A DNA stretch of 64,000 bases from Cribrihabitans marinus (GTDB taxonomy: Bacteria; Pseudomonadota; Alphaproteobacteria; Rhodobacterales; Rhodobacteraceae), in the NCBI RefSeq assembly GCF_900109035.1, contig NZ_FNYD01000014.1:1-64000 (forward strand), in the 5' to 3' direction. Within the stretch, counting starts at the first letter, position 1. The number at the start of each line of letters is the position of its first letter. The position numbers and the translations under genes were made by a program. This document shows positions 28,258-64,000 of the stretch, piece after piece. The notes beneath the pieces were generated by a model that had not been told where the DNA came from, did not search any database, and worked only from the letters and a program-made list of their open reading frames with translations.

Positions 28258-28332
28258 TCCGGCGTAGCTCAGCGGTAGAGCAGTTGACTGTTAATCAATT
28301 GGTCGTAGGTTCGATCCCTACCGCCGGAGCCA
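28258..28332 (+). tRNA. tRNA-Asn (GTT), probable island attachment site
   Basis: A 75-base cloverleaf: acceptor TCCGGCG/CGCCGGA, D arm GCTC/GAGC, anticodon loop CTGTTAA (GTT), T arm GTAGG/CCTAC, then GCCA. The gene is intact to its 3' end. An integrase gene begins 176 bp downstream, and all DNA from here rightward is accessory. That makes the 3' end of this tRNA the natural attL of the island. No second copy of the tRNA end is found in the window, so attR must lie beyond the right edge. Confidence 0.96.
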
Positions 28333-30781: not shown

Positions 30782-30938
30782 AATTCCGAGTCGGCACTGC
30801 CCACCGCGGAGTCATTCGACCTCACGAAGGCGTGATGCATCATGGAAGATAACGATCCGAAATTTTGACTCAGATCAACTGTTTCCCGCGAATCCGGGGC
30901 ATAGGGGCGGCATTCCAACACCCACGGAGATACAGGAA

Positions 30939-45927: not shown

Positions 45928-48692
45928 CAGCTCGCTTCCGGCAGGATTACGTGGAGGGCTATGAGGTCCGGCGGCAGCACCGGCTCGACAATCGTGCGAC
46001 CCCGCGTGGAGGAGGCAACACGCAGACGGTCGTGATCCGCCGTCAACGTCTCGGCGCGAGACTGGGCGATTGCGGTGAGGGCGTCAGAGTCATTGATACG
46101 GGCACGGGCGCGCAGCACCTGGGTTCTCCGCACCGGCTCGGGCAAGGTCGCGCCGACCTCCTCGTCGAGCACCTTTAGCGCATCGAGGCCGATGGCGGCG
46201 TGCCCCGTGGCTGTGCCTTCCCACAGAACCGGCACAATTTCTTCGGCCAGGAGGAAGTCATCTGACGCGGCCGAAGCGCGTCGGATGCGGTGGCGGACCC
46301 GGAGAAGTGCCAGCGTTTGCATCACGGTGGCAGCTCGGCTGATCCAGGCGCCGGATCGCGATAGAGCGTCCGGGGCGTCTTCCAGGGCACCTTCAGAAAG
46401 GGCGTCGGACAGCGTTGCGACTATGGGATGCGTGCGATGCAACACCTCGACTCCTGGCTGGGCGACAGGGTCGAACGAAACTCGGGTTCGCCCTTGGATG
46501 CCCCGCGAGGAGAGAGCTTCGCGCACCATTTCGGGTAGCGCATCGACCGGGACGGATTTTCCGTCGAACGTGATGCCGACCCGGTCCAGGGCACGGCGTA
46601 CGAACCGCCGAACATCCTCGGTATCGCCCAAAAGGTCGCGCACGCGCTGCCATTCCGGTATCACTTCTTCGGGCTTCAGGCGTCTTTGCGCAAAGCGTGC
46701 CCGGGATGCCTTTTCGTTCTCCTCCGCATCGCGCCAGAGTCGTTCGAGATCGGCCGCTGGATCAAGGTCGCGAAACAGGTCGCCCTGACGACCCGAGGCT
46801 GCGCCGGACTTCAATACCAGTGCATGCATCATTGCCTCGGACACCGTCCCGCGATCATCCAGCATGCTGACGGAGACATTCGTGGCTTTCCGGATGGCCG
46901 CAGCCTTTCTCAGGATGACGTCGAGAACAGCCCCGTCGATGGCCGAGTTGCTGCCATAGATCGTCAAGGAGCGCACCTGATCGGTCGGCTGCCCGAACCG
47001 ATCGACCCGGCCTTCGCGCTGTTGGTGCCGCGTCGGATTCCAGGACAGATCGTAGTGCACGACAGCATCGAATAGGGTCTGGAGGTTGATACCCTCTGAC
47101 AGGCAATCGGTTGCAACGAGTATTCGACGCTCCGCGTCCGCCATGCCTTCGACGCGAACCCTCCGCTCCGTGCCTGGAAGCCGGCCGGTGACGACCTCGA
47201 TCGTCCGGTCCTTGAAGGACCTATCTTTCCTGAGCGCGCCGGCCACGGCCTCGGCTGTGGCAATGTAGCGGCAGAACACGACAGGCTGATGGCCCTGAGA
47301 ACAGAGCTCCGCCAGTTCGCGCTTGAGGAGTGACAGCTTGGCGTCCTCCTGGGGTCTGGCTTCGAGATCTCGTGCCATCCGCAGAAGGTCGTCGAGGCCA
47401 GCCATGTCCTCTGCCGCTGTCCCCGGTTCCAGATCGTCATCCGTCAGCTGGCCCTCATCCTCGTCAAAGATCGCGGCTTCCAGATCAGAATCGTCGGTCG
47501 GGCCGCGCCGGGCCTCCAGCGTGGCAATCGCAGCGGCCGGCGAGGAACCGACACATCGCATCAGGGCCAGGGTAGCCCAGATCGCCAGCCGCCGCCGGCG
47601 CGCATCATGTCCGGATTTCGCGGCGCGCTCGGTGCACCACGCCAAGACGGCCTCGTGGAACGCCAGGTGTGAGGGCGTCAACTGAAACGCCCTCTCGCCG
47701 ACATCATGCTTGGGAAAGGTCCGCTTCGCGCCGGGAACTTCCCAGCCTTCTTCCCTGACATCGATACGTCGCCTCTGGACGAAATGCTGGGCGAGCTCTT
47801 CCCGAGCTCGGGACAAGGCGCCATGAGAGAAGTCCGGGCGAAGCAACGCCAGAATGTCGTCGAAAGCTTCCGCGTCACCGGAATGCGGCGTCGCGGTGAG
47901 CAGAACCATGTGACGGTTCGGGTCCTTTGCGAGACCGTTCAACAGGACCTGCCTCTGGGTTGTGCCGCGTCCGCCGCCGACACAGGCATGCGCCTCGTCC
48001 ACGATAACGAAATTCGGGCAGGACCTTGCGAAGTCAGCCCGGCGGCGGTCGGCCTTGATGTAGTCCAGGCTGACAACGGTGACCGGATGGGCGTCGAAAG
48101 GACTCTCGTCCAATGCGAGCCCGCGTTCGAGACGTGGCGCAGTCGTGGCGGTCACGGCGGTCGCATGCAGATCGAATTTTTCGCGCAGTTCATCGACCCA
48201 TTGCTCGACCAGGTGCGGCGGACACAGCACGCAGGCTCGCGTTGCCTCGCCTCGGTCCCACATCTCCCGGAGGATTAGGCCGGCCTCGATGGTCTTACCG
48301 ATGCCCACATCGTCGGCGATCAGCAGCCGGATCGGGTCGAGGCGCAGCGCCATGATCAACGGGACCAGCTGATAGGATCGCGGCTCGAACGCGATCCGAC
48401 CGGAGGAGCGGAACGGGCCCGCGCCTCGGCGAAGGCTGAGGCGCAACGCGTCCGACAGCAAGCGCGCTTCCGAGGAAGTGCCCATACGCGATGCGTCCGG
48501 CGCCTTGAAGATTGCCGGCTCGGGCGGAACCGACTCGAGTGCCGGCAGAACTACCGTGGAATCGCTCTCCGTGCCCGATAGCGGTCGCAGGCGCAGGCGG
48601 TCGGGTCCCGATCCGGGCAGGACGACCCATTCCCTGCCGCGTGCACGGATCAGGCTGCCTGGGCTTGTAAGGGCGCTGGTAGCCGAAGTCAT
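45927..48692 (-). CDS. DrmD-like SNF2 helicase
   Basis: A 921-aa SF2 ATPase of the SNF2/HepA type. Q-motif Gln108, Walker A ADDVGIGKT (126-134), DEAH box at 232-235 (VDEAHACVGG), motif III LLTATPHSG, and the C-terminal lobe ATDCLSEGINLQ and HQQREGRVDRFGQ are all intact. It resembles DrmD of class 1 DISARM. The first ~100 residues form a small beta-rich domain. It overlaps the DUF1998 helicase gene by ATGA. Probable role is DNA translocation or remodelling for the module. Confidence 0.88.
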   Translation of the reverse strand: MTSATSALTSPGSLIRARGREWVVLPGSGPDRLRLRPLSGTESDSTVVLPALESVPPEPAIFKAPDASRMGTSSEARLLSDALRLSLRRGAGPFRSSGRIAFEPRSYQLVPLIMALRLDPIRLLIADDVGIGKTIEAGLILREMWDRGEATRACVLCPPHLVEQWVDELREKFDLHATAVTATTAPRLERGLALDESPFDAHPVTVVSLDYIKADRRRADFARSCPNFVIVDEAHACVGGGRGTTQRQVLLNGLAKDPNRHMVLLTATPHSGDAEAFDDILALLRPDFSHGALSRAREELAQHFVQRRRIDVREEGWEVPGAKRTFPKHDVGERAFQLTPSHLAFHEAVLAWCTERAAKSGHDARRRRLAIWATLALMRCVGSSPAAAIATLEARRGPTDDSDLEAAIFDEDEGQLTDDDLEPGTAAEDMAGLDDLLRMARDLEARPQEDAKLSLLKRELAELCSQGHQPVVFCRYIATAEAVAGALRKDRSFKDRTIEVVTGRLPGTERRVRVEGMADAERRILVATDCLSEGINLQTLFDAVVHYDLSWNPTRHQQREGRVDRFGQPTDQVRSLTIYGSNSAIDGAVLDVILRKAAAIRKATNVSVSMLDDRGTVSEAMMHALVLKSGAASGRQGDLFRDLDPAADLERLWRDAEENEKASRARFAQRRLKPEEVIPEWQRVRDLLGDTEDVRRFVRRALDRVGITFDGKSVPVDALPEMVREALSSRGIQGRTRVSFDPVAQPGVEVLHRTHPIVATLSDALSEGALEDAPDALSRSGAWISRAATVMQTLALLRVRHRIRRASAASDDFLLAEEIVPVLWEGTATGHAAIGLDALKVLDEEVGATLPEPVRRTQVLRARARINDSDALTAIAQSRAETLTADHDRLRVASSTRGRTIVEPVLPPDLIALHVILPEAS

Positions 48693-51600
48693 GAAGTCAC
48701 CTTGTCGATATGCGCGAGTTCTTCCGGCATCTCATCGGGCGGCGCGGCCGCTCCGAGGATAATGTAACCTTCGTTCGACAGCTCGGCGGAAAGGCCTGCG
48801 TCCTCGGTCACGGCGGTGTAGAACTTGCTCCACGACGCCTGCGCGACCTTGCCGCCCCGTGCAATGGGGTCCACGTCCGGCGGTACGATTCCCCACCTGC
48901 GCGCCGCGTCTGCCCACGGCCCTTCCGAGGCCGGTGTGCGAACTGGACTCGTCTTTTCAATCGGCGCGACCACCTCGACCTTGGCCGATAGAAGGTCAGC
49001 CAAGAAACGCCGGACCTCGCTCCGCCTCCGGTCGATCAACTCATGATCAGGCTGGTTGAAATAGGTAAGGATGCAGCGATAGCAGCCCTCGACGCAGGGG
49101 GCGTCGTCGCGGTCACGCCATTCGCCGTCAGTCTCTTCCAGGTGCATGATCTCGAGACTGGCGCGGACCACCGCTTGCAGGTCCTCCTGGCGCGAGATCC
49201 GCGACAGCACACCCGCGCCACCTTCGGACGCCTCGTAGAATAGAAGCCCGTTGCGCGCATCCCGATCCGGAACGGGATCCACGGCAATTTCACCTTCCTC
49301 AAGACGGAAAACCCGCTCGAGGCCGCGGGCAAGGGCGCTCTGCAAGGTTGCGACGTCCTCGACCTCCAAGTGACGCAAGGGAACCAGAAGCATGGCATTC
49401 TTGCGATCCTCCACCATCGGCAGGACCGTCTGCTCGGGCTCGGCGCTTGGGCGTAAATCCGGGTCGGTATCATCACCGCCTGCCGAACCGCGCCAGCGAC
49501 CACTATGGGTTCCGATCTTGAAACCGTAGAGGTCCTTGTCTCGACGTCGCCGCAGTCCCTTGTTGATCCTGGCAATACGGGTGCGCGGTCCGTAGGAGAT
49601 CGCTGCCAGGTCTTTCCCTTCACCATCGCGCAACCGAACCCTTTGTGGTTCGCCCTGGAACGCAAAAGCGGTCTGTATATCGAAGCCCTGGCGCTGGCGC
49701 TCCTCGTCATTGGCGGAAATTCGTTCCGCCGGAGCGGCCTCGACATTCTCGACGCGAAATGCGCCGTCGAGGCGAATAGGATCGGCCAGTCCGGCCCCAC
49801 ATGCATCACAGCGCTCGGGAGCATCCGAACCTTGGATCGAGCCGCAGTTTGGGCAGAGAAGCAATACATCGGTGTTGAGGCCGACTCCGTCGCCAGCGCG
49901 CACTTGTGGAGGTAGCATGGCGCGCGTCACGCGGAACGACTGCCCTTCGTGATAGATCATGCTCCCCGGCCCGAACTCGGAAATTGCCAGGAAACGCGCC
50001 CTCGAGAGGAAATCGCCACGGCCACGTCGTTCGGCACCGGGAACGAAAGCCGTGAGCGGCAGGCGAGGAAAATTGTATCCAGGCAAGAAGCCTTCCGTTG
50101 CCAGATAGCGGTAGGTGAAGAAGTCCGAGGAGTTTGAATCCTTGCCGCTCTTGAGCAATTCGATCTGCCGTCGTGCGCTGTTATAAGATCGGTCCCCTTG
50201 CCGTCGTTCCTCGGCGCTTGCCTGGGTGCTCTTCGACAACCGGTAGCCGCGATCTCTCTGGTCTTCGGCGGCGCTCAACCGCCGTCTCCACGAGTCGAAA
50301 GCCCGGTCGAATCTCTCGAAGGCATCGCGCGCGGTGCTTTCTGCGAGATCATGTCCGAAGGGTCGGCCGGCAATCTGGCTGAGGACAGCCACCATGCGCT
50401 CTGCCGCACGAGGAGCGAGTTCGGGGACTGATAGAGCTGCCGCTACTTCATCTCGGAGTGGATACTTGCCGTCTCCTTGAGTGAGGTCCAGCACTTCGGC
50501 GATCGCCGGTGCAAGTTCCACTCCGGATTCCGCCAGCCAGATGGCGTGACAGTGGGATACGACGAGTTCCTCATTGCCGAGATCGAGAAGCGGCGGCTGC
50601 ACCGTTCCCGCGACCATCTGGCCTGGATCGGCGAAATAATACTGATCATGGGGGCTCTGTGCGGCGCAATAGGTCGTGATCAGCGCCGCCTGTCCAGCGC
50701 GGCCTGCACGCCCTGCCCGCTGCGTGTAGTTGGCCGGCGTCGGCGGCACGTTTCTAAGGTGCACATGTTCGAGTGTGGAAATGTCGACCCCGAGCTCCAT
50801 TGTTGGCGAGCAAATTAGCAGGGGAAGACGCCGGGAGGTTTCGTTGTCATGCGGCATCTCCTGCATTTGCTTCCGGTCGTCTTCTTCGAAACGGAACCGG
50901 CGCTCCCGGTGCTGGCGGAGGTCCTTGTCCACCTGTGCGGTGTGTTCCCTTGCCTCCAGGCCCCGCAGCGGTGCGCGCCTGGCCAACATGTTGTCGGCAA
51001 CCCTTGTGTAGAGTTCGCGAAAATAGGGGTTCGGCGGAGCTTTTTCGCCTTCTTCGGCCACGGGCTCTCTCGCGGCGCAGAGCTTCAGGGCGCCGGGGTC
51101 AAGTTTCCAGCCCATGGGGCCAAAGGGCGTTCGCTGAGCCCGGACATAGGCGTAGTCGTCATGGGCCGTCGCCTGGAGAAGCGCTTCGATGACTTCGGTC
51201 ACCTCACCCCGCCGCAGCCGACGACCCCAGAGGCGTTCATCGACGAGGGCCTTGCCCAGAGCCGACTGGGCGCTGCCGCGAAGCACGATGCCTTCATCCC
51301 GAAGCGAGATGTTTGCACGCGATGTGCCTTCGAGCATCAGCCACGCGGCTTCCCTTGGGCGTTCTTTCTCATGGATGGCCCAGGGCGCTTGGAGGTAGCG
51401 TCGCGACTCCTCGGCAATCTCCTCGAAGCGTTGCCGGTCCAGAGCTTCTACATCGATTGCGAGGCCGGTTCGCATGTGTTCCAGAAGGATCCGCAATGCC
51501 TTCAAGCGGATATCAGACGTCGTATCGCGCAACACCTCGGGAGCGCCGACGAAGATGGCGTCATCCTCGGCCAGTTCCGAAAGCATCGCGTATTCGACCC

Positions 51601-53767
51601 GAACAAGTTCGAGGTCCTCCAGATTGGGGTTCGTAAAGCGCCAGCCGCGGCGCTGATCCGTCCAGACGCGATGGGCAATGATCCGCGATAGCAGCACCTC
51701 AGCCTCAGTCGCTTTGCGTCCACGCACATCGTCCCGCAGCCATTCTTCGTGACTGTCTTCGTTCGACCAAGCATAACCCAGGGCCCTCCGGACGGCGTCT
51801 CCGAAATCGCGACCGGCCAACCCGCCGCTGCCAGCGTCGCGAACGGCCGCAAATACGGCTGCGCGCAGCTTCGTGACGAAGACGTGGTCGTTGAAATGAC
51901 CTGCCTGCAAGGCCGCGTCTTGGCGGTTGTCGGTAAAGGTCAGAAGCTTGCCGCGGCCGGCTTCCGCAGCTTCCATTCCCTCGAGTGCTACCGAGTTAAG
52001 TATCGTTGTCGCCGAGGAGCGACCTTCGGCGGAGAGGCCCGACAGCCTGTTGCGATCCCGACCTTGCCCCGGCGGCGTGTCTCCGCAGCGCAGACACAGC
52101 GAGAATTTTCCCTTCATGAACCACATATCGATGCCGGAGCCTTCGACACCTTGGGAATCTACTGAAACCTGGAATGGAACGCGTTCGCGATAGGTTTTCT
52201 TGATACGGGTCGATCCGTTTGCCGTTTCCTCGAGCCAGGACGACGGAAGATCCTGATCTCCCTCAAAGGGCAGCCCTTCCGCGCGACATAGAAAGCCTGT
52301 CTCGTCATCATCGTTGAGCGGTTCCTCGTCGATCGAGCGAGGGACGTATCGACGTCCGGCACCATCCAGAAACGCGCGGACAGGGTGATAGTCCTGCCCG
52401 CACTTCCGGCAGAAACGAACCTCGAACAGCCGCGCTTCTGCCTTCGGGTCGGTTTTCTGCTTGTCGAACCGGATCGTCCGTCCATGCTCCGGACCCAAGG
52501 TCGCATACAGACTGTCCGGACCGGACAGATACTGGTGAAGCTTGTAGGCCAGGAAGCCGCGATCCGATGAGCCTTGCCGCAGGGTCTCGGGCATCGAGGC
52601 AACGGAAAGCGCGCGCTGAAGCGCGGCGACGCACTCGAGCACCGGCTCGCCTGACTCTTCCGCGAGCTGGGATGCCGCCTCACTGAGGGTGCGGGGCTTA
52701 CGGCGTTGCGGTATCGGATCGTCCGTCAAGCCAATGCGAGTTTCGGCCCAGACGATGATCGGTTCGGTCTTCAGGCGGTCATCCGACAAATTCGCAAGCG
52801 GCGTGCGTATGGACTTCTTCAAGTCAGCTCGATCCACATGTCCTTCGGTGGCCCGGACCAGGGTCTCGCCAATCACGGCCTCAGGTTCAATTCGGTCACC
52901 GAAGATCATCGTCGCTGTATTCGCCACAACTGTTGCCGGGTCTTCCGCGACTGCATCCGAAGAGGCCATGGTGGCGGACGTTCCGATGCACCGAAGGTGG
53001 TCCGGCGACAGTCGATCTCGCAGACGACGAACCAGCATCGCTACGTCGGCACCCTGGCGCCCGCGATAGGTGTGTAGCTCGTCGAGAACGAGCCAATCGA
53101 GGCCGCGAGCGTTCGCCAGGACCTGGCGCCCTTTTCGATCGGCGCGGGTGAGCAGCAGCTCCAGCATCATGAAGTTGGTAAGCAGAATATCGGGGGGATT
53201 TGCGGCGATCCTCTCCCGGTCAGCTTCAGATTCTTGACCGGTGTATCTCTCGACGACAGGAGGATCGCCCAGACCGGAGTCACGCAGAAAACCGTTGATT
53301 TCCTCGAGCTGAGAATTCGCGAGTGCGTTCATCGGATAAATGATGATTGCGCGGGTGCGACGCTTCTCTCCTGCCGTACGCGCCCGAATGGCAGCGTCGA
53401 TCAATGGAATAAAGAAACAGAGCGACTTGCCTGAACCCGTTCCGGTGGTGACGACGAAGCCCTTTCCGGACTGCGCCATGCCAAGCGCCAGGTCCTGGTG
53501 GACGTAGAGATCGATGGGGCTGCCATCTTTGCGGCGAAAGACCTTGGCTGTATCCGGAAGGACTGTACCGTCAGCAGCTCTCTCATCCACTGACGCACCA
53601 GGTCTAAACCGGGGATTCAGACTTATGAGCGGCTCGCGGACGTATCGGCGCTCGTTGTAGGCTTTATCGATTGCTGCTTGGAGATCTTCCGATCGAATAT
53701 TTGCAAAGGAGCGGGAGAAATTCTCATATCGCTCGATCGACTTCTGGTTAAGTGAAAATACGTCCAT
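48689..53767 (-). CDS. Giant DUF1998 DEAD-like helicase (DruE / fused DrmA-DrmB-like)
   Basis: A 1692-aa protein, first gene of module A. The N-terminal helicase core has Walker A TTGTGSGK at 107-114, IIYPMNALANSQ as motif Ia, DELH at 229-232 (LVLDELHTYRGRQGAD), and TSATMA. A C-terminal lobe follows with STPTMELGVDI-type motifs (ICSPTMELGVDIS) and QRAGRAGR. Zinc-like Cys pairs occur in CRKCGQ, CLRCGD and CPNCGS..CDACG. The C-terminal DUF1998 cluster reads CVEGCYRCILTYFNQPDHELIDR near residue 1555. One chain thus covers what DISARM splits into DrmA and DrmB, and it also matches the Druantia DruE plan. AAAGG precedes the ATG. Confidence 0.88.
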   Translation of the reverse strand: MDVFSLNQKSIERYENFSRSFANIRSEDLQAAIDKAYNERRYVREPLISLNPRFRPGASVDERAADGTVLPDTAKVFRRKDGSPIDLYVHQDLALGMAQSGKGFVVTTGTGSGKSLCFFIPLIDAAIRARTAGEKRRTRAIIIYPMNALANSQLEEINGFLRDSGLGDPPVVERYTGQESEADRERIAANPPDILLTNFMMLELLLTRADRKGRQVLANARGLDWLVLDELHTYRGRQGADVAMLVRRLRDRLSPDHLRCIGTSATMASSDAVAEDPATVVANTATMIFGDRIEPEAVIGETLVRATEGHVDRADLKKSIRTPLANLSDDRLKTEPIIVWAETRIGLTDDPIPQRRKPRTLSEAASQLAEESGEPVLECVAALQRALSVASMPETLRQGSSDRGFLAYKLHQYLSGPDSLYATLGPEHGRTIRFDKQKTDPKAEARLFEVRFCRKCGQDYHPVRAFLDGAGRRYVPRSIDEEPLNDDDETGFLCRAEGLPFEGDQDLPSSWLEETANGSTRIKKTYRERVPFQVSVDSQGVEGSGIDMWFMKGKFSLCLRCGDTPPGQGRDRNRLSGLSAEGRSSATTILNSVALEGMEAAEAGRGKLLTFTDNRQDAALQAGHFNDHVFVTKLRAAVFAAVRDAGSGGLAGRDFGDAVRRALGYAWSNEDSHEEWLRDDVRGRKATEAEVLLSRIIAHRVWTDQRRGWRFTNPNLEDLELVRVEYAMLSELAEDDAIFVGAPEVLRDTTSDIRLKALRILLEHMRTGLAIDVEALDRQRFEEIAEESRRYLQAPWAIHEKERPREAAWLMLEGTSRANISLRDEGIVLRGSAQSALGKALVDERLWGRRLRRGEVTEVIEALLQATAHDDYAYVRAQRTPFGPMGWKLDPGALKLCAAREPVAEEGEKAPPNPYFRELYTRVADNMLARRAPLRGLEAREHTAQVDKDLRQHRERRFRFEEDDRKQMQEMPHDNETSRRLPLLICSPTMELGVDISTLEHVHLRNVPPTPANYTQRAGRAGRAGQAALITTYCAAQSPHDQYYFADPGQMVAGTVQPPLLDLGNEELVVSHCHAIWLAESGVELAPAIAEVLDLTQGDGKYPLRDEVAAALSVPELAPRAAERMVAVLSQIAGRPFGHDLAESTARDAFERFDRAFDSWRRRLSAAEDQRDRGYRLSKSTQASAEERRQGDRSYNSARRQIELLKSGKDSNSSDFFTYRYLATEGFLPGYNFPRLPLTAFVPGAERRGRGDFLSRARFLAISEFGPGSMIYHEGQSFRVTRAMLPPQVRAGDGVGLNTDVLLLCPNCGSIQGSDAPERCDACGAGLADPIRLDGAFRVENVEAAPAERISANDEERQRQGFDIQTAFAFQGEPQRVRLRDGEGKDLAAISYGPRTRIARINKGLRRRRDKDLYGFKIGTHSGRWRGSAGGDDTDPDLRPSAEPEQTVLPMVEDRKNAMLLVPLRHLEVEDVATLQSALARGLERVFRLEEGEIAVDPVPDRDARNGLLFYEASEGGAGVLSRISRQEDLQAVVRASLEIMHLEETDGEWRDRDDAPCVEGCYRCILTYFNQPDHELIDRRRSEVRRFLADLLSAKVEVVAPIEKTSPVRTPASEGPWADAARRWGIVPPDVDPIARGGKVAQASWSKFYTAVTEDAGLSAELSNEGYIILGAAAPPDEMPEELAHIDKVTS

Positions 53768-54483: not shown

Positions 54484-55176
54484 TCACGCCGCCCGCGCCC
54501 CTGATGTTGCCTCGGACCAGCCCAGCCAGACGGTCGGGCGCATTTCCTCCTCGCCAAGGAAGGTGCGGATCGCGAAGACCTCCAACGCCGCCCCATGGCG
54601 AAAGGCGGGGCCCCAGGCGGGATCGGCGGGCATGACCTCGGTGCCACCGGCCCAGACGCCGCGCTGCGCCAGCAGGTAATCGTCCTCACGGTCGGTCAGG
54701 ACGCCGCCCTGGGCCAGCCGCGTCAGCGCCCGCGCCATTGCCGCATCCATGTCGCCCAGCAGGCCGTCGAGCGGACAATCGGAACGCTCCACCCGGCGCT
54801 GCAACACGTGGCGCGTCGCGTGCACCGCGTCCATCTGGAACCCGATCGCGCGCTTGCCGCTGCGGACGTGAACGCGCGTCCAGGCGATGCGGTCTTCCCT
54901 GAAGCATGCCGCGCCGTCCTTGCGCAGATCCACCGTCATCACCGAGCGCAGCAAGATCACAAGCCCATCCGCCACAGTCCGCGCCGACACCACGCCACGC
55001 CGCCCGCGCAGCCGGGCCGCGAACCTCTGGCGGCTGCGGGGATTGGGCGCGATGCTGTGCAATTCCATCAGGATCCGCGCCATGTCGGCATTGTCCTGCG
55101 CCGCATCCACCAACGCCTGCCCCGCCAGGCCGCGCGCGAGCGAGCCGCGGGCATGTTCCAGATCCACTACACGCAT
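54484..55176 (-). CDS. Unknown protein divergent from the WYL regulator, 230 aa
   Basis: Not recognised. The ATG at 55176 is preceded by GGAGAG with good spacing and gives MRVVDLEHARGSLARGLAGQ. The protein is Arg-rich, mixed alpha/beta, with no signal peptide or membrane helix. One Cys and a cluster of His/Arg residues (HVRSGKRAIGFQMDAVHATRHV) lie mid-protein. It is transcribed away from the WYL gene across a 115-bp shared promoter region, so it is likely controlled by it. Whether it belongs to module B or is independent is open. Confidence 0.6.
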   Translation of the reverse strand: MRVVDLEHARGSLARGLAGQALVDAAQDNADMARILMELHSIAPNPRSRQRFAARLRGRRGVVSARTVADGLVILLRSVMTVDLRKDGAACFREDRIAWTRVHVRSGKRAIGFQMDAVHATRHVLQRRVERSDCPLDGLLGDMDAAMARALTRLAQGGVLTDREDDYLLAQRGVWAGGTEVMPADPAWGPAFRHGAALEVFAIRTFLGEEEMRPTVWLGWSEATSGARAA

Positions 55177-55291
55177 TCCGATCTCTCCAGGTCTTGGATT
55201 CGTTGACAAATCGATAATGCCCGGCCAGCATGGCAAAAACTGTCACCGATTTCTTGCGCGACAAACCATTGAGGCAAAGAGGGTTTTCCAC

Positions 55292-56287
55292 ATGTCCTAC
55301 GCCAAGGCCGCCGATTTGCTGCGGGTTGCCGAAATGGCCATGTCCCGCTTTGACGGGATCGCACTCCAGGATCTAACCGAGGAATTCGGCTGCGATCACC
55401 GCACCGCGCAGCGCATGATGCGATCCTTCGAGACCGTCTTTCCGCAAGTCGATATCCGCGAGGACGGGGACCGCCGCCGCCGCTGGCACCTGCCCCGGCA
55501 CGACCCGCGCTGGCTGCAGGCACAGGGCATCCGCGACAGCGAACTCGCCGCGCTGGAACTGGCCATCAAACGCGCCGAACGCGACGGTGCCCCGGACGAG
55601 GCGAAGAGACTGCAAGTTCTGCGAGATCGCCTTCTGGCCGCCATGCCGTCCAGCCTGGCGCGCCGGGCCGAAGCCGACGCCGAGGCGCTGCTCGAAGCGC
55701 AGGGCTTTGCTTCTCGCCCCGGGCCGCGTGTCGTGTCGGACCTGAGCCTGCTGGGGGCGCTGACCGAGGCGCTGCGCGCGCCCTTCACCGTCGAGATAAG
55801 CTATACTTCGGCCGATGGCCGGACGTCCGACCGGTTGCTGGAACCTTATGGGTTGTTACTGGGCATCCGGCGCTATCTCGTCGCCCGGCCCGTCGCGGGC
55901 GACGGCAAGATGCGGCGCTTTCGACTCGACCGTATCGCCGAGGCGCGGATCACCGGCAAGAGTTTTGCCCGCGACCCGGCCTTCGACCTTGGCCAATTCG
56001 CATCGCAGGCTTTCGGTTCGTTCCATTCCGACGCCGAATATGGCCCCGTCGCCTGGCGGTTTTCACCAGAGGCCGCGTCCGTCGCACGGCAGTTCGTCTT
56101 TCACCCGTCGCAGGAGATGCTCGACGAATCGGACGGATCGTTGATCGTGCGGTTCGAAGCCTCAGGGCATCTCGAAATGGCCTGGCATCTCTACCAATGG
56201 GGGAATGACGTCGAAGTGCTGGCCCCCAAGGCGCTCCGCGACATGGTGGCCGGGCATCGCCGCGCCGATTTCCCGGCACTCCCCTGA
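55292..56287 (+). CDS. WYL-domain transcriptional regulator
   Basis: A 331-aa protein with an N-terminal winged HTH (LQDLTEEFGCDHRTAQRMMR, about 23-42), a helical middle, and a WYL domain at about 160-250 (VEISYTSADGRTSDRLLEPYGLLLGIRRYLVAR). The C-terminal WCX-type extension runs to the end. WYL regulators commonly control defence operons and sense nucleic-acid ligands. The ATG at 55292 is chosen because earlier in-frame codons overlap the divergent gene. It lies 72 bp upstream of the nuclease-helicase operon and is probably its regulator. Confidence 0.9.
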   Translation: MSYAKAADLLRVAEMAMSRFDGIALQDLTEEFGCDHRTAQRMMRSFETVFPQVDIREDGDRRRRWHLPRHDPRWLQAQGIRDSELAALELAIKRAERDGAPDEAKRLQVLRDRLLAAMPSSLARRAEADAEALLEAQGFASRPGPRVVSDLSLLGALTEALRAPFTVEISYTSADGRTSDRLLEPYGLLLGIRRYLVARPVAGDGKMRRFRLDRIAEARITGKSFARDPAFDLGQFASQAFGSFHSDAEYGPVAWRFSPEAASVARQFVFHPSQEMLDESDGSLIVRFEASGHLEMAWHLYQWGNDVEVLAPKALRDMVAGHRRADFPALP

Positions 56288-56359
56288 CCCTGACAGCTTT
56301 TGCCACCGTAAGCCGCGACCCTGTAGCAGACCACCGTTAACGATTCGAAAAGATACCTC

Positions 56360-58951
56360 ATGCGCATCGATCCCCTGCTCACCCGCTCTCCGGAATCCGG
56401 CGCGTTGCGCCCCGTCACGAATGACCTGCTGGCCGAGGTCTACCTTTCGCCGCAACGGCCCGAACTGCGCCTTGGCGATCACCTCGGCCCCGGCGCGCCC
56501 TGGTCCGAGAGTTTCGAGGCGGCGCCCGAGGAAACCGCGCGGGCGGTCGAGGCAGGGCTCTTGGCCGTAGCCCATGCAACCCCGTATCTCGACCCTTCTT
56601 ATCTTTCGCCTGAGGCGCTGCCCGAGGGCCGCGCCCGCAGCCACCTGGCCGCGCTGCGCGACCTCTGGCGCGACCTCGGCGCCCTGCCGGGCCAACTGGA
56701 TACCTGGCGCCACGTGCTGAACGCCAAGGCCGGCGATGCGCTCGAGGCGCTGCCGCTGGCCACCCCCGATTGCCCCTTCGCCACCCCGGCCGAGGGCGCA
56801 CTTGCGGGAACCTTGCGCGCGCATCACGGAGCTGCAGAGGCACCGCCGGCATCGTCCTCCGACAAGGAGGGCAGCGCGCTGCGGCACATTCAGGATCATC
56901 TCGGGCGGCGGTCGGACGAGATAGCGCCGGACGGTTCCATCGCATGCCACGGGCTGCGCGACCCGCGCGAGGAGACTGAGTTCGCTGCCGCCCTCGCCCA
57001 GTCCATGCTGGAGGCGGGCCGAGTGGAGAGTGCATCCGAGATCGGCCTTCTGGTGCCCGACGGGCCCGCCTATGCGCTGTCTTTGCGGGAAGCCTTTGAC
57101 AGGGTCGGGCTACCTCTCTCCGGACTGCCGGAACAGGACGCGCGGCGCGATACAACCGGGGAGCTTCTTCCGCTGCTGCTGGTGCTCCTGCAAGGCCCGG
57201 CGCCGCGCACCGCGCTGGCCTCACTCTACGTCGCGCCGGGGATGCCCTGGTCGCCCGAGACCGGGCGCAGAATGGCGCGCGAGGTGATCGACCGGGGCAA
57301 ATCGCGCACGGCGTCGGAACTGGACGGCCCGGCCCGTGACCTGCTGGATGCCCTGCGCCCCTGCGACACGCCCGAGCAATTGTTCGGGCGGCTTGGGGCC
57401 TTTGCACGCGCCGCACCCGGGGTGGAATTGGCCCCGCGTATCGCGCCCCTGAAGACGGTCACGGACAAAACCATCGACTGGCCCCTGCTGCGCCGCCTCG
57501 CCGCGCCGGGGCCGCAAGCCGCCGAGGGGCGGGACCGGTTCGTTGAAGGTGTCTCGTTCTTTACCGAAAGCGCCCTGCCCTGGCGTCCGGTCCGCCAGCT
57601 GATCGTGCTGGGCATGGCCGGCGGGCACTGGCCCCGTCTGCCGGGATCGACCCCGTTCTTCACCGAGGGCGAGATCGCGCTGATCCGCGACAGCGGCCTG
57701 TTGCTGGAAGGCCGCCGGCAGAAACTGGCGCGCGGACTGGAACTGTTCCGCCGCCAGCTGGGTGCGGCCACAGAGGGCGTGACGCTGCTGGTGCCCGCGA
57801 TGGACATGCGCGGAGACCGCCTGACGCCCTCTACCGGGCTTGCCCTGATCGCGCATATGCTGGGGGCCGAAGAGCCTGCCGACCTGGTGCAGGACCTGCG
57901 GTCGGTCGCACCCGAGGACTGGCCCGTCGCAGCCACCCTTCCCGCCCTCGTCCCGCAGGGCGGCGCACCCGATCTGCCCGAGTGCGGCGTCCTGCACATC
58001 CAGCGCGGCCTGGGCACGCCGGACAAACCCGGCGTCGATCTGCTGCGCCTGCGCGAGACCGAGGATGGCCCGCTGCCGCATTCGCCGTCGCGGCTTGAGA
58101 CCCTGCTGGTCAGCCCGCTCGGCTGGCTGCTGGACGAACTCGGCGCCAAGGACCGCGCCTGGGCGCCCGAGACCCTCGACGTGATGACTCTTGGCACGCT
58201 GATGCACCAGGTGCTGGAGGATGTCTATGCCGAGGGCGCGCCGGTGCCGGATGACGCCACGCTGACCACGACGGTCCCCGGCGTGCTCGAGAGCGCGATC
58301 CGCCGTCACGCGCGCTGGTTGACTGATGCCGCCTGGGCCACGGAACGGGCCAGCCTACTGCGCGAGGCGCAGGATATCTGCACCGCCTGGGCTGGTTTCC
58401 TGCGCGACACCGGGGCCAAGGTCCTGCACAACGAGATCGAATTGAAGGGCGATCACGGCGGCCTGCTGCTGCATGGCAAGGCGGACTGCCTGCTGAAGCT
58501 GCCCGACGGGCGGATCCTCGTGGTCGACCACAAGCGCTCCAGTGCGGGCGGTCGGCGCGAGCGCATGGCCAGGGGCTGGGACCTGCAGGTGGCGCTCTAC
58601 CGCGCCATGCTGGAACGGCCCTCGGAGGACACCGCGCTGACCCGGCTGGTGGCCGAGGGCGCGCAGGTCGTCACCGCCTACCACATGCTGCGCGACGGCA
58701 CCGTCCTGTCGGATGCCCATGGCGTCGATGTGCCAAGGGTCGAGACGGCCGGCGCGGATGCAGCCGTGAAAGCGATGGAACACCTTGCCAAGGTCCTCGC
58801 CGAGGTTGGCGCGGGCACAATCCGCCTTAACCGTGAAGGCGACGCCAAGACCTTCGATAAGGAGCGCGGCATCAAGGCCTATGCCCTGAAAAACCCGGTG
58901 GTGGCGGCCTTTTGCCTGCCGGAAACGCAAGAAGAGGAGGACGCGCAATGA
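56360..58951 (+). CDS. AddB-like RecB-family nuclease
   Basis: An 863-aa protein, shorter than host AddB (about 1000). The N-terminal and middle parts resemble an inactivated UvrD-like helicase fold without Walker A. The C-terminal PD-(D/E)XK nuclease of RecB type has the His in GTLMHQVLEDVY (about 615), HGKADCLLKLPDG with the Asp, VVDHKRSS with the DxK pair, and QVALYRAML. The four Cys of an iron-sulfur cluster seen in classical AddB are not present. It overlaps the next gene by ATGA and should form a two-subunit nuclease-helicase with it. Confidence 0.85.
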   Translation: MRIDPLLTRSPESGALRPVTNDLLAEVYLSPQRPELRLGDHLGPGAPWSESFEAAPEETARAVEAGLLAVAHATPYLDPSYLSPEALPEGRARSHLAALRDLWRDLGALPGQLDTWRHVLNAKAGDALEALPLATPDCPFATPAEGALAGTLRAHHGAAEAPPASSSDKEGSALRHIQDHLGRRSDEIAPDGSIACHGLRDPREETEFAAALAQSMLEAGRVESASEIGLLVPDGPAYALSLREAFDRVGLPLSGLPEQDARRDTTGELLPLLLVLLQGPAPRTALASLYVAPGMPWSPETGRRMAREVIDRGKSRTASELDGPARDLLDALRPCDTPEQLFGRLGAFARAAPGVELAPRIAPLKTVTDKTIDWPLLRRLAAPGPQAAEGRDRFVEGVSFFTESALPWRPVRQLIVLGMAGGHWPRLPGSTPFFTEGEIALIRDSGLLLEGRRQKLARGLELFRRQLGAATEGVTLLVPAMDMRGDRLTPSTGLALIAHMLGAEEPADLVQDLRSVAPEDWPVAATLPALVPQGGAPDLPECGVLHIQRGLGTPDKPGVDLLRLRETEDGPLPHSPSRLETLLVSPLGWLLDELGAKDRAWAPETLDVMTLGTLMHQVLEDVYAEGAPVPDDATLTTTVPGVLESAIRRHARWLTDAAWATERASLLREAQDICTAWAGFLRDTGAKVLHNEIELKGDHGGLLLHGKADCLLKLPDGRILVVDHKRSSAGGRRERMARGWDLQVALYRAMLERPSEDTALTRLVAEGAQVVTAYHMLRDGTVLSDAHGVDVPRVETAGADAAVKAMEHLAKVLAEVGAGTIRLNREGDAKTFDKERGIKAYALKNPVVAAFCLPETQEEEDAQ

Positions 58952-61900
58952 CCGATCTGTCCCTCGTGCCCGCTGGTGCTGGCGCCGGCAAGACCTACCA
59001 CATCCAGAAGACGTTGGGGGAATGGGTCGAGACGGGCGAGGTGTCTCCGGGCCGCATCCTTGCCGTGACCTTCACCGAGGCGGCGGCGGCCGAGATGCGC
59101 GACCGGGTGCGCGGCGAATTGATGGCGCGCGGGCGACTCGAAGACGCGCTGGAGATCGACCGCGCCTACATGGGCACGATCCACGCCCTGGGACAGCGGT
59201 TGTTGACGGAACACGCCTTCGCTGCCGGACGCTCACCCGAAAGCCGGCTCTTGAGCGAGCCGGAACGCGATCTGCTGATCCGGCTGGAGATGACCCGCTG
59301 CACCGCCTTGCACCCCTTGATGCGGGACTTGGGGCGGTTCGGTTACGCTTGGGACTTCGCCACGGGGGCCAGCGCCGAGGACAACTTTCGGGCCGATGTT
59401 CTAAGGACAGTGGACCTGATTCGCGGCCTTGGCGCGCGCGGGCAGTCGCCGGATATCCTTGAACCGGCGTTGGACGCGCTGGCCGAGGGCTATGGCGCGG
59501 TTGCGCCGGACGGCGCGACGCTCACAGCGTCGCTGCAACGTGCCGTACAGGACCTTCTGGAGGCTTTCCCCGACAGCCTCGGCCCGCTTTTCGACGGCAA
59601 CGGATCGGCGGTAAAGTCCTTCTCGGACAATCACCGCGACCTTCGGCTCGCGGCGCGGGACGGCGTGCTGGCGCGGGACTGGACGCTCTGGCAGAAACTG
59701 CGCGACCTGCGGCAGTCCAAACGTGGCGCACCGACCCCCGAAGGCTATGACGACCTCGCCGCCGTTGTCATGGAGGTCGCAAATGCCCTGCCACGCCATC
59801 CCGGCCCGCTGGCCGATGCGCAGGCGCACCTGAGCGCGCTCGTGACCGGCGCGCAGGAGGTGCTGGAGGCCTACGAGGAGGCCAAGCGCAAGGCCGGGCT
59901 GATCGATTACGCCGACATGATCGCCGAGGCCGAGACTCTGCTGCGCGCCTGCCCCGACATCCTCCAAGCCGTGCTGGGCGAAATCGATTGCGTGGTGATC
60001 GACGAATTCCAGGACACCAACCCGGTGCAGTTCGCCCTGCTCTGGCGGCTGGCGCGCGGGGCGAAACGCGCGCTCATCGTGGGCGACACCAAACAGTCGA
60101 TCATGGGTTTCCAGGGTGCCGACCCGCGCCTGACCGAAGCTCTGCAGGCCGCCCATCCCGAGACTGTCACACCGCTCTATCGCAACTGGCGGTCCGATCC
60201 GAGGATCATGGCGATGGTCAACACCCTCGGCCCGACACTCTTCGACAACTACAATCCTCTGGCCCCACAGCGCGCCGAAACCGGCGAGACAGCGCTGGAG
60301 GTTCTGGACCTGCCGAAAGGCCGCAAGGACACCACGGCAGAGTGTATTGCGAACCGCGTGGCCGACATCCTGAAGGCAGAAACGCCTGTCTACGACAAGG
60401 CGCTGAAGACCATGCGCCCCGCCCGACCCAGCGACGTGGCCGTGCTGACTTATACACACCAGAAGGCCAGCGCGGCGGCTGCGGCTCTGGAGGCTCACGG
60501 CCTGCCGGTGCGCATCCAACAGGACGGCTGGCTAAGCTCGCTCGCAATGCGCGCCGCCCGCGCCGCCCTGGCCTTTGCCGCCGACCCAGAGGACAGCCAC
60601 GCCGCGCTGACTTGGCTGACGCTCGGCCCGCCGCGCGTGCCGCTGGAGGATGCCTTGCACAACGCCGTCGATGGGGTGCTGGGCGCACATGTCTCTCTCG
60701 CCCCCCTGCACGCGCTCAATGACGGGATCGCCACCCGCCCGGTGGGCGAGACCCTGGCCGATGTGATGCGCGTGACCAGCCTGCGCGACTGGGCCGCCGG
60801 GCTGGCGCAGCCCGCGCAGGCGCTGGCCGACCTCGCCCGGCTCGAGGGTGAGGCGCAGGAGTTCGACATTATGGCGCACGACCTGCGCGCCGCCGCTGGT
60901 TTCCATGGCGCCGGGGTGCAGGTCTTTCTGGGTTGGATCGCATCCCAGACCGCCAGGGATTGGGACCGCCATCCCGACCCGGACGGCTGGTCCTCCTCGG
61001 GCATCGAAATCTGCACCTGGCACGCCGCCAAGGGCCGCGAATGGCCGATCACCGTGGTCGCCGGACTGGACCAGAAGATCGCCGAACGCCCGGGCACTCT
61101 GCGGGCCGAGTTCGATGGCTTCGACGATCTCGACAACGTGCTGGACCATGCCGGCCTGGGCTACCTGCCAGACTTCGCCGCGCCGGAATCGCAGGAGCCT
61201 TTCACCGAAGCCCGCCGCCCCGAGGATGAACGCGACGCGGCGCGCAAGCTTTACGTCGCGCTGACTCGGGCGCGCGACCGGCTGATCCTGGTGATGCCGC
61301 GCGAGAAGTCCAAGCCGCGCGACACTGCCGAACGCATGGTCGACCTGCTGCGCGACCGCGCCGGGTTCGAGACAGCCGATTGCACGCTGACCGTCGTGAG
61401 CCAGCCCTTTGCCTCGCGGGTTGCCGAAGGCATTCCCGACGAACCGGTTTCCTCAGGGGCCGCATCGGCCGAGACCCACACCCGCTTCGGCAAGGCACGC
61501 AGCCCTCTCGCCACCAAACGCACGCCCTGGCGGCGCAGCCCCTCGACCCTTGCCGAACCGGAGCCGGCCCATGCCGTCCTACTGGAAACGGTGCGCCTGG
61601 CCGAGGGCGTCACGGAGACCAGCACCGGCAGCGCGACCGAACGCGGCACCGCCTGGCATCTCGCCTTCCGCGTGCTGGCCGCCCGACCGGACCTGACCGA
61701 CCGGATCTCCGCAGCTACCGGCCTTCCCGGCCATGCGATCACTCAGATCGCCGCTCAGGCGCAGGCATTGACCAGTTGGCTGGCAGACCGGGGATATGAC
61801 AGGCTGCATTTCGAATTGCCGCTGCAGGAGACCGCCTTGGACGGTTCCGAAACCAACGCCATCCTCGACTGTCTTGCCGAGGGGCCGCAGGGCCTGATGA

Positions 61901-62091
61901 TCGTCGACCACAAGTCCGGCACCTGCCCCGACCCCACCGAACGCTTTGCCACCTACCAGCCGCAACTGGCCGCCTATGCCGCTATGGTCCGCAGGCGCTG
62001 GCCGGACAAGCCGCTGCAGGGCGTCGCCATCCACTGGATGAGCGAGGGCACGCTAAGCGTTGCGACCGCCCCGATTATGGAACCGGCCTGA
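58948..62091 (+). CDS. AddA-like UvrD helicase with RecB nuclease domain
   Basis: A 1047-aa SF1 helicase-nuclease. Walker A is AGAGAGKT at 9-16, Walker B with VVIDEFQDTNP near 350, then GDTKQSIMGFQGA, and the C-terminal lobe TWHAAKGREWP and VALTRARDRL. The nuclease domain around 970-995 reads AILDCLAEG..LMIVDHKSG, followed by YQPQLAAYA. All core motifs are intact. The start is the ATG inside the AddB-like stop. Its stop overlaps DUF6361 (TGATG). Unlike the host RecBCD/AddAB pair it is embedded in a WYL-PLD operon, pointing to defence rather than repair. Confidence 0.88.
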   Translation: MTDLSLVPAGAGAGKTYHIQKTLGEWVETGEVSPGRILAVTFTEAAAAEMRDRVRGELMARGRLEDALEIDRAYMGTIHALGQRLLTEHAFAAGRSPESRLLSEPERDLLIRLEMTRCTALHPLMRDLGRFGYAWDFATGASAEDNFRADVLRTVDLIRGLGARGQSPDILEPALDALAEGYGAVAPDGATLTASLQRAVQDLLEAFPDSLGPLFDGNGSAVKSFSDNHRDLRLAARDGVLARDWTLWQKLRDLRQSKRGAPTPEGYDDLAAVVMEVANALPRHPGPLADAQAHLSALVTGAQEVLEAYEEAKRKAGLIDYADMIAEAETLLRACPDILQAVLGEIDCVVIDEFQDTNPVQFALLWRLARGAKRALIVGDTKQSIMGFQGADPRLTEALQAAHPETVTPLYRNWRSDPRIMAMVNTLGPTLFDNYNPLAPQRAETGETALEVLDLPKGRKDTTAECIANRVADILKAETPVYDKALKTMRPARPSDVAVLTYTHQKASAAAAALEAHGLPVRIQQDGWLSSLAMRAARAALAFAADPEDSHAALTWLTLGPPRVPLEDALHNAVDGVLGAHVSLAPLHALNDGIATRPVGETLADVMRVTSLRDWAAGLAQPAQALADLARLEGEAQEFDIMAHDLRAAAGFHGAGVQVFLGWIASQTARDWDRHPDPDGWSSSGIEICTWHAAKGREWPITVVAGLDQKIAERPGTLRAEFDGFDDLDNVLDHAGLGYLPDFAAPESQEPFTEARRPEDERDAARKLYVALTRARDRLILVMPREKSKPRDTAERMVDLLRDRAGFETADCTLTVVSQPFASRVAEGIPDEPVSSGAASAETHTRFGKARSPLATKRTPWRRSPSTLAEPEPAHAVLLETVRLAEGVTETSTGSATERGTAWHLAFRVLAARPDLTDRISAATGLPGHAITQIAAQAQALTSWLADRGYDRLHFELPLQETALDGSETNAILDCLAEGPQGLMIVDHKSGTCPDPTERFATYQPQLAAYAAMVRRRWPDKPLQGVAIHWMSEGTLSVATAPIMEPA

Positions 62092-63260
62092 TGTCCTTTC
62101 TCGCATGGATCGACTTCGACCAGGCCGACCGGGATCGCACCCGCCGGATCATGGACCTCTTCGGTCAGGAAGACACCCGAGACGAGCTTGGCCTCGGTTC
62201 GGTGCGCGATGCACTTGCGGACCTCATGTTCCCCGGCACATCGACGATCCAGACGCGGTTGCGCTACATGCTGTTCGTGCCCTGGATCTACCGGATGGCC
62301 GGAACGCACAAGGGCACGGCCGCCGCTCGGCGCGAGCTGGCGCGTGCCCTTGAGATCCGTCTGATCGAGGCACTTGTGCGCGGCGGCGAGACGCAGAACG
62401 TCATCGGCAGCGCAGCACGGGAAAAGCTGAAGCGTCTGCCCAGCGACGTCTACTGGGCGGGCCTGCTGACGCTCGGCATCCGGCGCTTCCAGGGCAGTCG
62501 CAATGCCTGTCTCGAGGCGACCCCGGGCGAAGCGCAAACGCTCTGGGCCAATGGATTGCCGCCCGCGCCAGACGATTTCCTGTCATCCCCGGACAGCACG
62601 GCGACCTTTCCGCTTTCGACGGAAGAGGCCGATTTCCTGCGGGACCGGCTGGCACAGGACGCGCCGCACAGCCTGTTCACGCTCTTGTCCCGCCAGGCGA
62701 GCGCCGCCGAGTGCGACATGATCTGGCAGCATCCCTCGCGCGCTGATTGGCCCAATCACATCAGGACGCTCGTCGGTCATGCCGAGCGGTTTTCTCGTCT
62801 GATGCACAGCGCCTCCCTGCTCTACAATCTAATGCTGTCGGAGAAGGCGGCGCAGATGCAGGGGGCGCATGAGAGCAGCTGGCATGATCGGGTCGAGACC
62901 TATTCCGCGATGCTCGACACGTGGAAAGCCGAGACCCCCCATGACCTGTTCACCGATTGGGACCTTCAGGATCTTTGGCTTTTGGCGCAGGACACAATCC
63001 ACGATGTCAAACCACACAGCCGCAGGTTCATAGAAACATGGCGCGAGACCGTGCTGGAAACGGGCGGAGGCGTGCGCAACGATGCTACCGCCCGCGCCCT
63101 TGTCCGCGACCGCGAAACCCGTCTGAAAGGCGCGAAGTCCCGCTTCCGCAACGACAGCGCGCTGATGCGATGGAGCGGCGCGTCGGGGACAGCGCCGCTT
63201 AACTTCCGCTGGAAACCCGTCGTTACCAATCACGTCAGGGATCTTGTGGATGCAGAATAA
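62091..63260 (+). CDS. DUF6361 family protein
   Basis: A 389-aa protein that fits DUF6361: MSFLAWIDFDQADRDRTRRI at the start, then FPGTSTIQTRLRYMLFVPWIYR. It is soluble and helical, with an Arg-rich tail. No catalytic motif is evident. Function is unknown; the family sits next to helicases and PLD-like proteins in defence-type regions. It starts in the helicase stop (TGATG) and overlaps the next gene by 11 bp, so the operon is strongly coupled. Confidence 0.8.
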   Translation: MSFLAWIDFDQADRDRTRRIMDLFGQEDTRDELGLGSVRDALADLMFPGTSTIQTRLRYMLFVPWIYRMAGTHKGTAAARRELARALEIRLIEALVRGGETQNVIGSAAREKLKRLPSDVYWAGLLTLGIRRFQGSRNACLEATPGEAQTLWANGLPPAPDDFLSSPDSTATFPLSTEEADFLRDRLAQDAPHSLFTLLSRQASAAECDMIWQHPSRADWPNHIRTLVGHAERFSRLMHSASLLYNLMLSEKAAQMQGAHESSWHDRVETYSAMLDTWKAETPHDLFTDWDLQDLWLLAQDTIHDVKPHSRRFIETWRETVLETGGGVRNDATARALVRDRETRLKGAKSRFRNDSALMRWSGASGTAPLNFRWKPVVTNHVRDLVDAE

Positions 63261-64000
63261 TGCTGCGCTCGATCCCGAAAACCGCGCGCTTTACGCCGAG
63301 ATCCTGCGGGCGCCTGCGGGGTATGACCTCGATGCCGCGCTGGCGACGACCTATACGCTGGACTTTGAAACGGCCCTCGTTGTCCCGGCGACGCTGGCCT
63401 TTCACGCTGCCGAAAACAGGCAAGAGACATTGGACACGCCGCTTGCGCTGCTTGAAGGGTTGGAGCGCCTGTCGTCCCGCATCGCGATCTTCTGCGAGGC
63501 CGGTCGGATCAAGTCCGTCCCCAAGGGGGCCAACCGCCTGACTGCGCTGCTCGAAGATACCGTGACGGAGGTAACAGCCCCGCGCGACGGCGCCTTTCAC
63601 CCCAAGCTATGGTTCCTGCGGTTCGTTCCCATCGGCGGCCATGGGCGGCCGCGCCTGCGGCTGGCCTTGCTGTCCCGCAACCTGACGACGGACGCCTCCT
63701 GGGACCTGTCCCTGTCTCTGGACGGCGTGGCGACAGCGAACGCACGCGACCAGAACGCACCGCTTGTCGAGCTTGTCAGTGCCTTGCCCGGCATGGCCTC
63801 CGGTCGGCCCGCCCCGGCGCCCGTCGCGTCGATGGTCGCTTCCCTCGCCAAGGATCTTGCACGCGCCGAATGGGACTACCCGAGGCACGTCAACAAGATC
63901 AGCTTTGCTGTGAACGGGCTGAGCGATCGGGTCTGGCGTCCGCAGGTTGGCCGCACACTGGGCATCATTTCGCCCTTTGTCACGGATGGCGCATTGTCGG
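63250..64000 (+). CDS. PLD-like nuclease/phosphodiesterase, truncated by window edge
   Basis: At least 250 residues, open at the right edge. The ATG at 63250 gives MQNNAALDPENRALYAEIL. A first HKD-type half-motif is FHPKLWFLRF (HxK, about residues 117-119), followed by LLSRNLTTDASWDLS, the Ser/Asn/Asp stretch of PLD-like proteins. A second half-motif would lie beyond the edge. It overlaps DUF6361 by 11 bp and closes the visible part of module B. PLD proteins occur in several defence systems (DrmC of DISARM among them). Confidence 0.75.
   Translation, partial: MQNNAALDPENRALYAEILRAPAGYDLDAALATTYTLDFETALVVPATLAFHAAENRQETLDTPLALLEGLERLSSRIAIFCEAGRIKSVPKGANRLTALLEDTVTEVTAPRDGAFHPKLWFLRFVPIGGHGRPRLRLALLSRNLTTDASWDLSLSLDGVATANARDQNAPLVELVSALPGMASGRPAPAPVASMVASLAKDLARAEWDYPRHVNKISFAVNGLSDRVWRPQVGRTLGIISPFVTDGALS

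Follow-up and report, generated by a model that had tools for sequence, protein, structure and literature searches.

The window analysed here is a stretch of 64,000 nucleotides from Cribrihabitans marinus (bases 1-64000 of the 79,753-bp contig NZ_FNYD01000014.1). Near its end lies an operon in which five co-directional genes follow each other on the + strand from position 55292. They encode a WYL regulator, an AddB-like protein, an AddA-like protein, a DUF6361 protein (ZacA) and a PLD-like protein (ZacB). The best explanation found is that this operon holds two defence modules. One would be a portable, WYL-linked helicase-nuclease resembling AddAB, which has been recruited repeatedly to defence triples containing a PLD nuclease and a helicase. 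The other is such a triple, the Azaca system. This reading is given a probability of roughly 60%.

An original prediction, made from the letters of the window, had listed WYL, a RecB-family nuclease, a UvrD helicase-nuclease, DUF6361 and PLD in a row. All five genes are present, in that order. They are also coupled as it described, by an ATGA (58948-58951, AddB/AddA), a TGATG (62089-62093, AddA/ZacA) and an overlap of 11 bp (63250-63260, ZacA/ZacB). The extent that it gave the block, 54484 to 64000, needs correcting at both ends. Position 54484 belongs to an unrelated divergent open reading frame (ORF), and the edge of the window cuts the operon, which continues into the gene for ZacC.

The Azaca half

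By sequence comparison, the DUF6361 gene, the PLD gene and the helicase gene downstream of them are Azaca, a catalogued defence system. In the 2023 copy of PADLOC, ZacA matches its model with an E-value of 4.8e-121 (profile positions 3-393 of 396), the complete ZacB gene with 8e-161 (2-583 of 586) and ZacC with 0 (6-1016 of 1019). Of the candidate undescribed system that had been proposed, the DUF6361 and PLD half is therefore already catalogued, as ZacA and ZacB, and this holds for that half only; WYL-AddB-AddA is unlisted in PADLOC.

Azaca is reportedly a system that Millman and colleagues described in 2022. Searches by sequence gave no convincing solved relatives for ZacA, ZacB or ZacC. PMC10952713 lists a PLD domain for Azaca and cites Millman et al. 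2022 for it; in PMC12278908, ZacC serves as a defence helicase. In the literature searched, which was a partial library, no mechanism for Azaca was found described, nor any paper on a link between AddAB and Azaca.

The AddAB-like half

The best match in the PDB for the AddA-like protein is AddA (3u44_A, E 2e-71). Its main helicase motifs and its nuclease residues are invariant in an alignment of 18 relatives from two families. The invariant nuclease residues are H, E, D, D-x-K, Q and Y in both subunits; in the AddB-like protein these are H616, E692, D709, D723, K725, Q743 and Y747 (14 relatives). For these two subunits, the earlier statement that the nuclease and ATPase motifs are intact is borne out by the alignments.

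A dead helicase fold had also been proposed for the RecB-family gene, and this too holds up. No Walker A motif was found in the AddB-like protein, yet its model has the fold of AddB. By sequence the protein matched nothing in the PDB and no PADLOC model. Its predicted structure (predicted local distance difference test, pLDDT, of 80) has the AddB of an AddAB complex as its top five structural matches by both aligners (Foldseek E 7.6e-18; VIA Z 21.6 over 752 residues). The large overall root-mean-square deviation of this match is probably a matter of domain placement.

In Bacillus subtilis AddB, C-terminal cysteines hold a 4Fe-4S cluster. Across the 14 AddB-like proteins no cysteines of the Fe-S type are conserved, and no C-terminal CxxC pattern was found.

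The AddA-like protein scores far under the NCBIfam cut-offs for AddA (TIGR02784, 149.6 against 860.75 bits; TIGR02785, 149.5 against 707.65), and the host genome carries a separate gene of canonical AddA length elsewhere. The pair is here called AddAB-like rather than AddAB. WYL-AddB-AddA, together with its repeated coupling to Azaca, is the part not catalogued in the sources searched.

Linkage across genomes

Relatives of ZacA were sought in 84,980 GTDB species genomes. This gave 325 stretches, the best 80 of which were kept, being the loci most similar to the query alignment. Almost all are from Alphaproteobacteria, with a few from other Pseudomonadota. The set includes some redundant or metagenome-assembled loci, and the gene calls in relatives are longest ORFs. 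In seven of the 80 the contig ends too near ZacA to judge, which leaves 73 assessable loci. Individual loci are referred to by L numbers.

An AddA-like gene, whole or partial, lies directly upstream of ZacA and on the same strand in 46 of these 73 loci (L054 included after a re-check), mostly overlapping it or no more than 30 bp away. In a further six it lies no more than one gene off, for a total of 52 (71%). Such co-occurrence of DUF6361 with AddA-like genes had been named beforehand as a thing to look for, and it is there. At L039, WYL-AddB-AddA is found divergently upstream of ZacA.

There are two families of AddAB-like genes; that of the window is type 1, the other type 2. The type-2 AddB resembles that of type 1 over the nuclease domain only, and the AddA proteins of the two types are 25% identical. 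On a ZacA tree, which is a quick tree with some long branches, the types interleave. Type 1 occurs in the clade of the window, in the L045 clade and in the distant L079 clade, and type 2 in the L041 clade and in a large separate clade. The linkage to ZacABC is convergent: unrelated AddAB-like pairs have landed repeatedly in one slot and in one orientation. Because this is hard to explain otherwise, a functional link between the AddAB-like pair and Azaca is likely.

Modules are also exchanged between partners. The AddA and AddB of L032 are 85% and 81% identical to those of L095. Its ZacA, ZacB and ZacC are 44%, 41% and 43% identical to those of L095, and 62-68% identical to those of the window. 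Judged by these identities, L032 is a clear module swap.

Two loci suggest that an Azaca operon can lose its AddAB. At L024 (2881-3720) and L027 (5808-10001), in-frame internal deletions fuse AddB to AddA, with ZacABC intact.

Some loci carry other genes in this position. L081, L087, L082, L084 and L086 have an extra large helicase, of UvrD_C_2 or ResIII type, between the type-2 AddA and ZacA; at L165 a gene of similar size follows AddA, and ZacABC is absent. At L070 and L078 (3485-9898), WYL, a DrmD-like SNF2 helicase and a 623-amino-acid protein of no assigned family accompany Azaca where the AddAB-like pair would otherwise be.

The AddAB-like pair with other partners

Among 391 genomes of the window's order, a full-length type-1 AddB is present in 17 and ZacA in 7. 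Three genomes have both, and in each of them the two are adjacent. The partners of the 17 are ZacABC (3), a triple here called T1-T2-T3 (3), GmrSD (1), McrBC (1), a PDDEXK_4 nuclease (2) and a metallophosphatase (2); two more lie at a contig end, and three are broken or solitary.

In the class, 8 of 385 genomes have a type-2 AddB. Five of these eight also have ZacA, compared with 7 of all 385 (P about 1e-8); the two are adjacent in only two of the five and on separate contigs in the others.

Ten plasmid records carry an AddAB-like pair, seven of them predicted to be conjugative. Here the partner is the T triple in five (in two directly after a BREX cluster) and a DUF262 gene in one, while four pairs are alone. 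No relatives of the AddB-like protein were found in viral contigs.

T1-T2-T3 consists of an unknown protein, a PLD-like protein and a superfamily 2 (SF2) helicase. It is coupled to the AddAB-like pair at L127 (10834-16857), L133, L135 and L146-L150, and follows a BREX cluster at L148 and L150. At L146 it precedes AddB rather than following AddA, with a 4-bp overlap kept. In PADLOC the cassette had no full match. It was considered as a divergent Azaca and rejected as such: T1 gives no signal against ZacA, T2 matches ZacB over some 50 residues around a PLD motif (probability 8-75%, varying with the profile), and T3 matches ZacC as helicases do. The triple has the same architecture as ZacABC and is not classed as the same family; it is possibly an uncatalogued Azaca-like system. 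Among the partners read, a tight overlapping AddA junction is found chiefly with ZacA and T1, and GmrSD and McrB lie 230-370 bp off.

Many type-1 loci also have a gene for a protein of about 522 amino acids with ADP-ribosylglycohydrolase and dual-specificity phosphatase domains. It lies between WYL and AddB at L045 (where the domains were checked), L127, L130, L147 and L149, and L147 adds a HEPN-domain gene.

The WYL regulator

Of the 19 loci where a type-1 AddAB pair is adjacent, 16 carry a WYL homologue, which is also found at loci that lack Azaca. The WYL gene goes with the AddAB pair and not with ZacABC. Its most likely start is the ATG at 55292. The block upstream of it (Table 1), a possible promoter or operator, is conserved in the window, L025, L029 and L031, and the sequence around the block diverges. 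A search for inverted repeats upstream of that gene gave none within the limits tried. Divergently upstream, type-2 loci often have an HmaA-like helicase as well as a WYL gene of the BrxR-like kind.

Proposed mechanism and alternatives

In the first module, a WYL protein that is repressor-like is joined by a helicase-nuclease of two subunits, built like AddAB. In it AddA would be the working motor and AddB an inactive motor that serves as a scaffold, and there would be two working nuclease sites. The second module comprises ZacA (activity not assigned), the PLD nuclease ZacB and the SF2 helicase ZacC. ZacABC may recognise and open the DNA of phages or plasmids, which ZacB would nick or break. 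The AddAB-like complex would then load on ends or single-stranded gaps, unwind processively and degrade both strands. The WYL protein would keep the pair silent until infection.

A dedicated copy of AddAB could act when phage inhibitors block that of the host. Phages commonly carry inhibitors of RecBCD (PMC12904381), which would be a reason for a dedicated second engine.

An anti-phage or anti-plasmid machine had been proposed for these genes. The defence role is well supported, by the identity of Azaca and by an island that also holds Zorya type I and ARMADA-like genes; protection itself we infer, as we do the substrate, the regulation by WYL and the order of action.

Several things count against the two-module reading. 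The proposed sequence of steps is guesswork. In the sample from the window's order, 14 of the 17 type-1 AddB loci lack ZacABC, and the co-occurrence of type-1 AddB with a close ZacA is modest when the window's genome is left out (2 overlaps, P 0.005). Around a quarter of the assessable Azaca loci have no AddAB. These include L050, L056 and L073, which on the ZacA tree are nested in the type-2 clade, while at L024 only the fused AddAB remnant is left. Since loci such as these do without the pair, Azaca does not need AddAB. The predicted structure of ZacA is also poor (pLDDT 47).

It could be, then, that WYL-AddB-AddA forms a defence or anti-plasmid system sufficient in itself, which merely adjoins Azaca and works independently of it. 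Of the 17 loci sampled in the order, 14 have the pair by itself or beside a different partner, and in 4 of 10 plasmid loci it stands alone; the WYL gene travels with the pair rather than with ZacABC. Mere adjacency sits badly, however, with near-overlapping same-strand ZacA junctions in dozens of loci, with two AddAB families in the same slot, and with an equally tight junction to T1-T2-T3, in either order. Independence is unlikely on this evidence, although it has to be taken seriously. Another thought is that the AddAB-like complex acts as sensor or decoy: phage inhibitors directed against the host's AddAB or RecBCD would bind it, and this would trigger ZacABC or a shutdown of the cell, much as inhibition of RecBCD triggers OLD, retron Ec48 and Gabija (PMC12904381). 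Every nuclease and helicase residue is preserved as in a working enzyme, however, and this makes a decoy rather improbable.

That the pair is a backup repair enzyme for the mobile island's own recombination would agree with its likeness to AddAB and with its relatives on conjugative plasmids. Yet its neighbours are consistently restriction or defence genes (BREX, GmrSD, McrBC, Hma, PLD-helicase triples), and no relative was found in viral contigs, so a repair role is very improbable. Almost no credence is left for the five genes being a single undescribed defence system, as had first been claimed. The operon is contiguous and overlapping, but its DUF6361 and PLD genes encode ZacA and ZacB, ZacC lies past the window edge, and the halves assort independently: WYL-AddB-AddA often occurs without ZacABC, and Azaca occurs without the pair in that same quarter of loci.

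The two-module reading can be taken one step further. Portable AddAB-like pairs may, as a class, be a general DNA-degrading engine for defence, swapped among unrelated modules that open DNA (Azaca, the T triple and perhaps GmrSD and McrBC), and required to restrict fully those phages that block the AddAB or RecBCD of the host. This extension is tentative, and we hold it at somewhat less than even odds. If true, and one engine is common to unrelated defence triples, bacteria would be seen to keep an additional copy, used for defence alone, of the enzyme most often disabled by phages. That AddAB-like pairs have become attached to Azaca repeatedly and convergently is a direct clue that it works by opening DNA and processing its ends.

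Island surroundings

In the full contig, ZacC is followed after a gap of 320 bp by the four genes of Zorya type I. The same system comes after Azaca at L021, L023, L024 and L031, which makes Azaca and Zorya type I a recurrent pair in the clade of the window.

The second defence-like operon that had been noted alongside consists of ARMADA type I-like genes (41950-53767). The gene order of ARMADA type I is YprA-like, BrxHII-like, PglX-like (PMC12458937), and it is the same in the window. A possible HNH-type ORF, read by eye, follows the methyltransferase gene at 41147-41953.

The tRNA-linked island of the original prediction agrees with what was found: the island probably begins at a tRNA-Asn, with integrase-like ORFs beside it. 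The ORF that is divergent to the WYL gene (54484-55236, - strand, 250 amino acids) has no Pfam match; a similar divergent ORF is present at L126 (961-1758).

Table 1 Features of the operon and of the island around it. Positions are those of the contig, with those in L002 in brackets where given.
Feature	Position	Strand	Basis or remark
tRNA-Asn	28258-28332		Probable start of the island
Two integrase-like ORFs	28508-32147		Read by eye
DrmMI-like (PglX-like methyltransferase), ARMADA type I-like	45927-41950	-	PADLOC
DrmD/DpdE-like (BrxHII-like helicase), ARMADA type I-like	48692-45927	-	PADLOC
DruE-like (YprA-like helicase), ARMADA type I-like	53767-48689	-	PADLOC
Upstream block, TTGACA box and AAACTGTCACC element	55203..55247	+	Possible promoter/operator
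WYL-WCX transcriptional regulator	55292..56287	+	Pfam WYL E 1.7e-10, WCX E 2e-15
AddB-like, 863 amino acids	56360..58951	+	PDDEXK_1 E 1.8e-17
AddA-like, 1047 amino acids	58948..62091	+	ATG 58948; UvrD-helicase E 4e-47, and PDDEXK_1
ZacA (DUF6361)	62091..63260	+	Pfam DUF6361 E 1e-100
ZacB (PLD-like nuclease)	63250..64000 in the window; ends at contig 65094 (L002 3250-5094)	+	ATG 63250
ZacC helicase	65087-68269, beyond the window		Directly 3' of ZacB, 8-bp overlap
Zorya type I: ZorA1, ZorB1, ZorC1, ZorD1, in order	68590-76214 (L002 8590-16214)		PADLOC E 4e-115 to 0

Comparison with known systems

Like AddAB, RexAB and AdnAB, the pair combines an AddA-like superfamily 1 helicase and nuclease with an AddB-like subunit that has an inactive helicase fold and a nuclease. 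Unlike them, it lacks Fe-S-type cysteines, scores below the AddA cut-offs, and is found in defence islands and on plasmids.

The AddA-like protein also matches models of GajB from Gabija, by way of the UvrD motor that they have in common. The pair differs from Gabija in that its nuclease is fused to the helicase, it has a dedicated AddB partner, and GajA is absent nearby. An identity with Gabija was rejected, given that no GajA match was found among the neighbouring genes scanned and that the AddB-like protein has no match in PADLOC.

Regulators of the BrxR/CapW type are likewise WYL-domain proteins that adjoin defence genes, and relatives of BrxR co-localise with many systems (PMC9122601). 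The predicted regulator of the window differs in being WYL-WCX, which is another subgroup.

As for Azaca itself, its three components are all full length here and in order. What sets it apart is the AddAB-like pair, directly upstream or one gene away, both here and in relatives (52 of 73 assessable loci).

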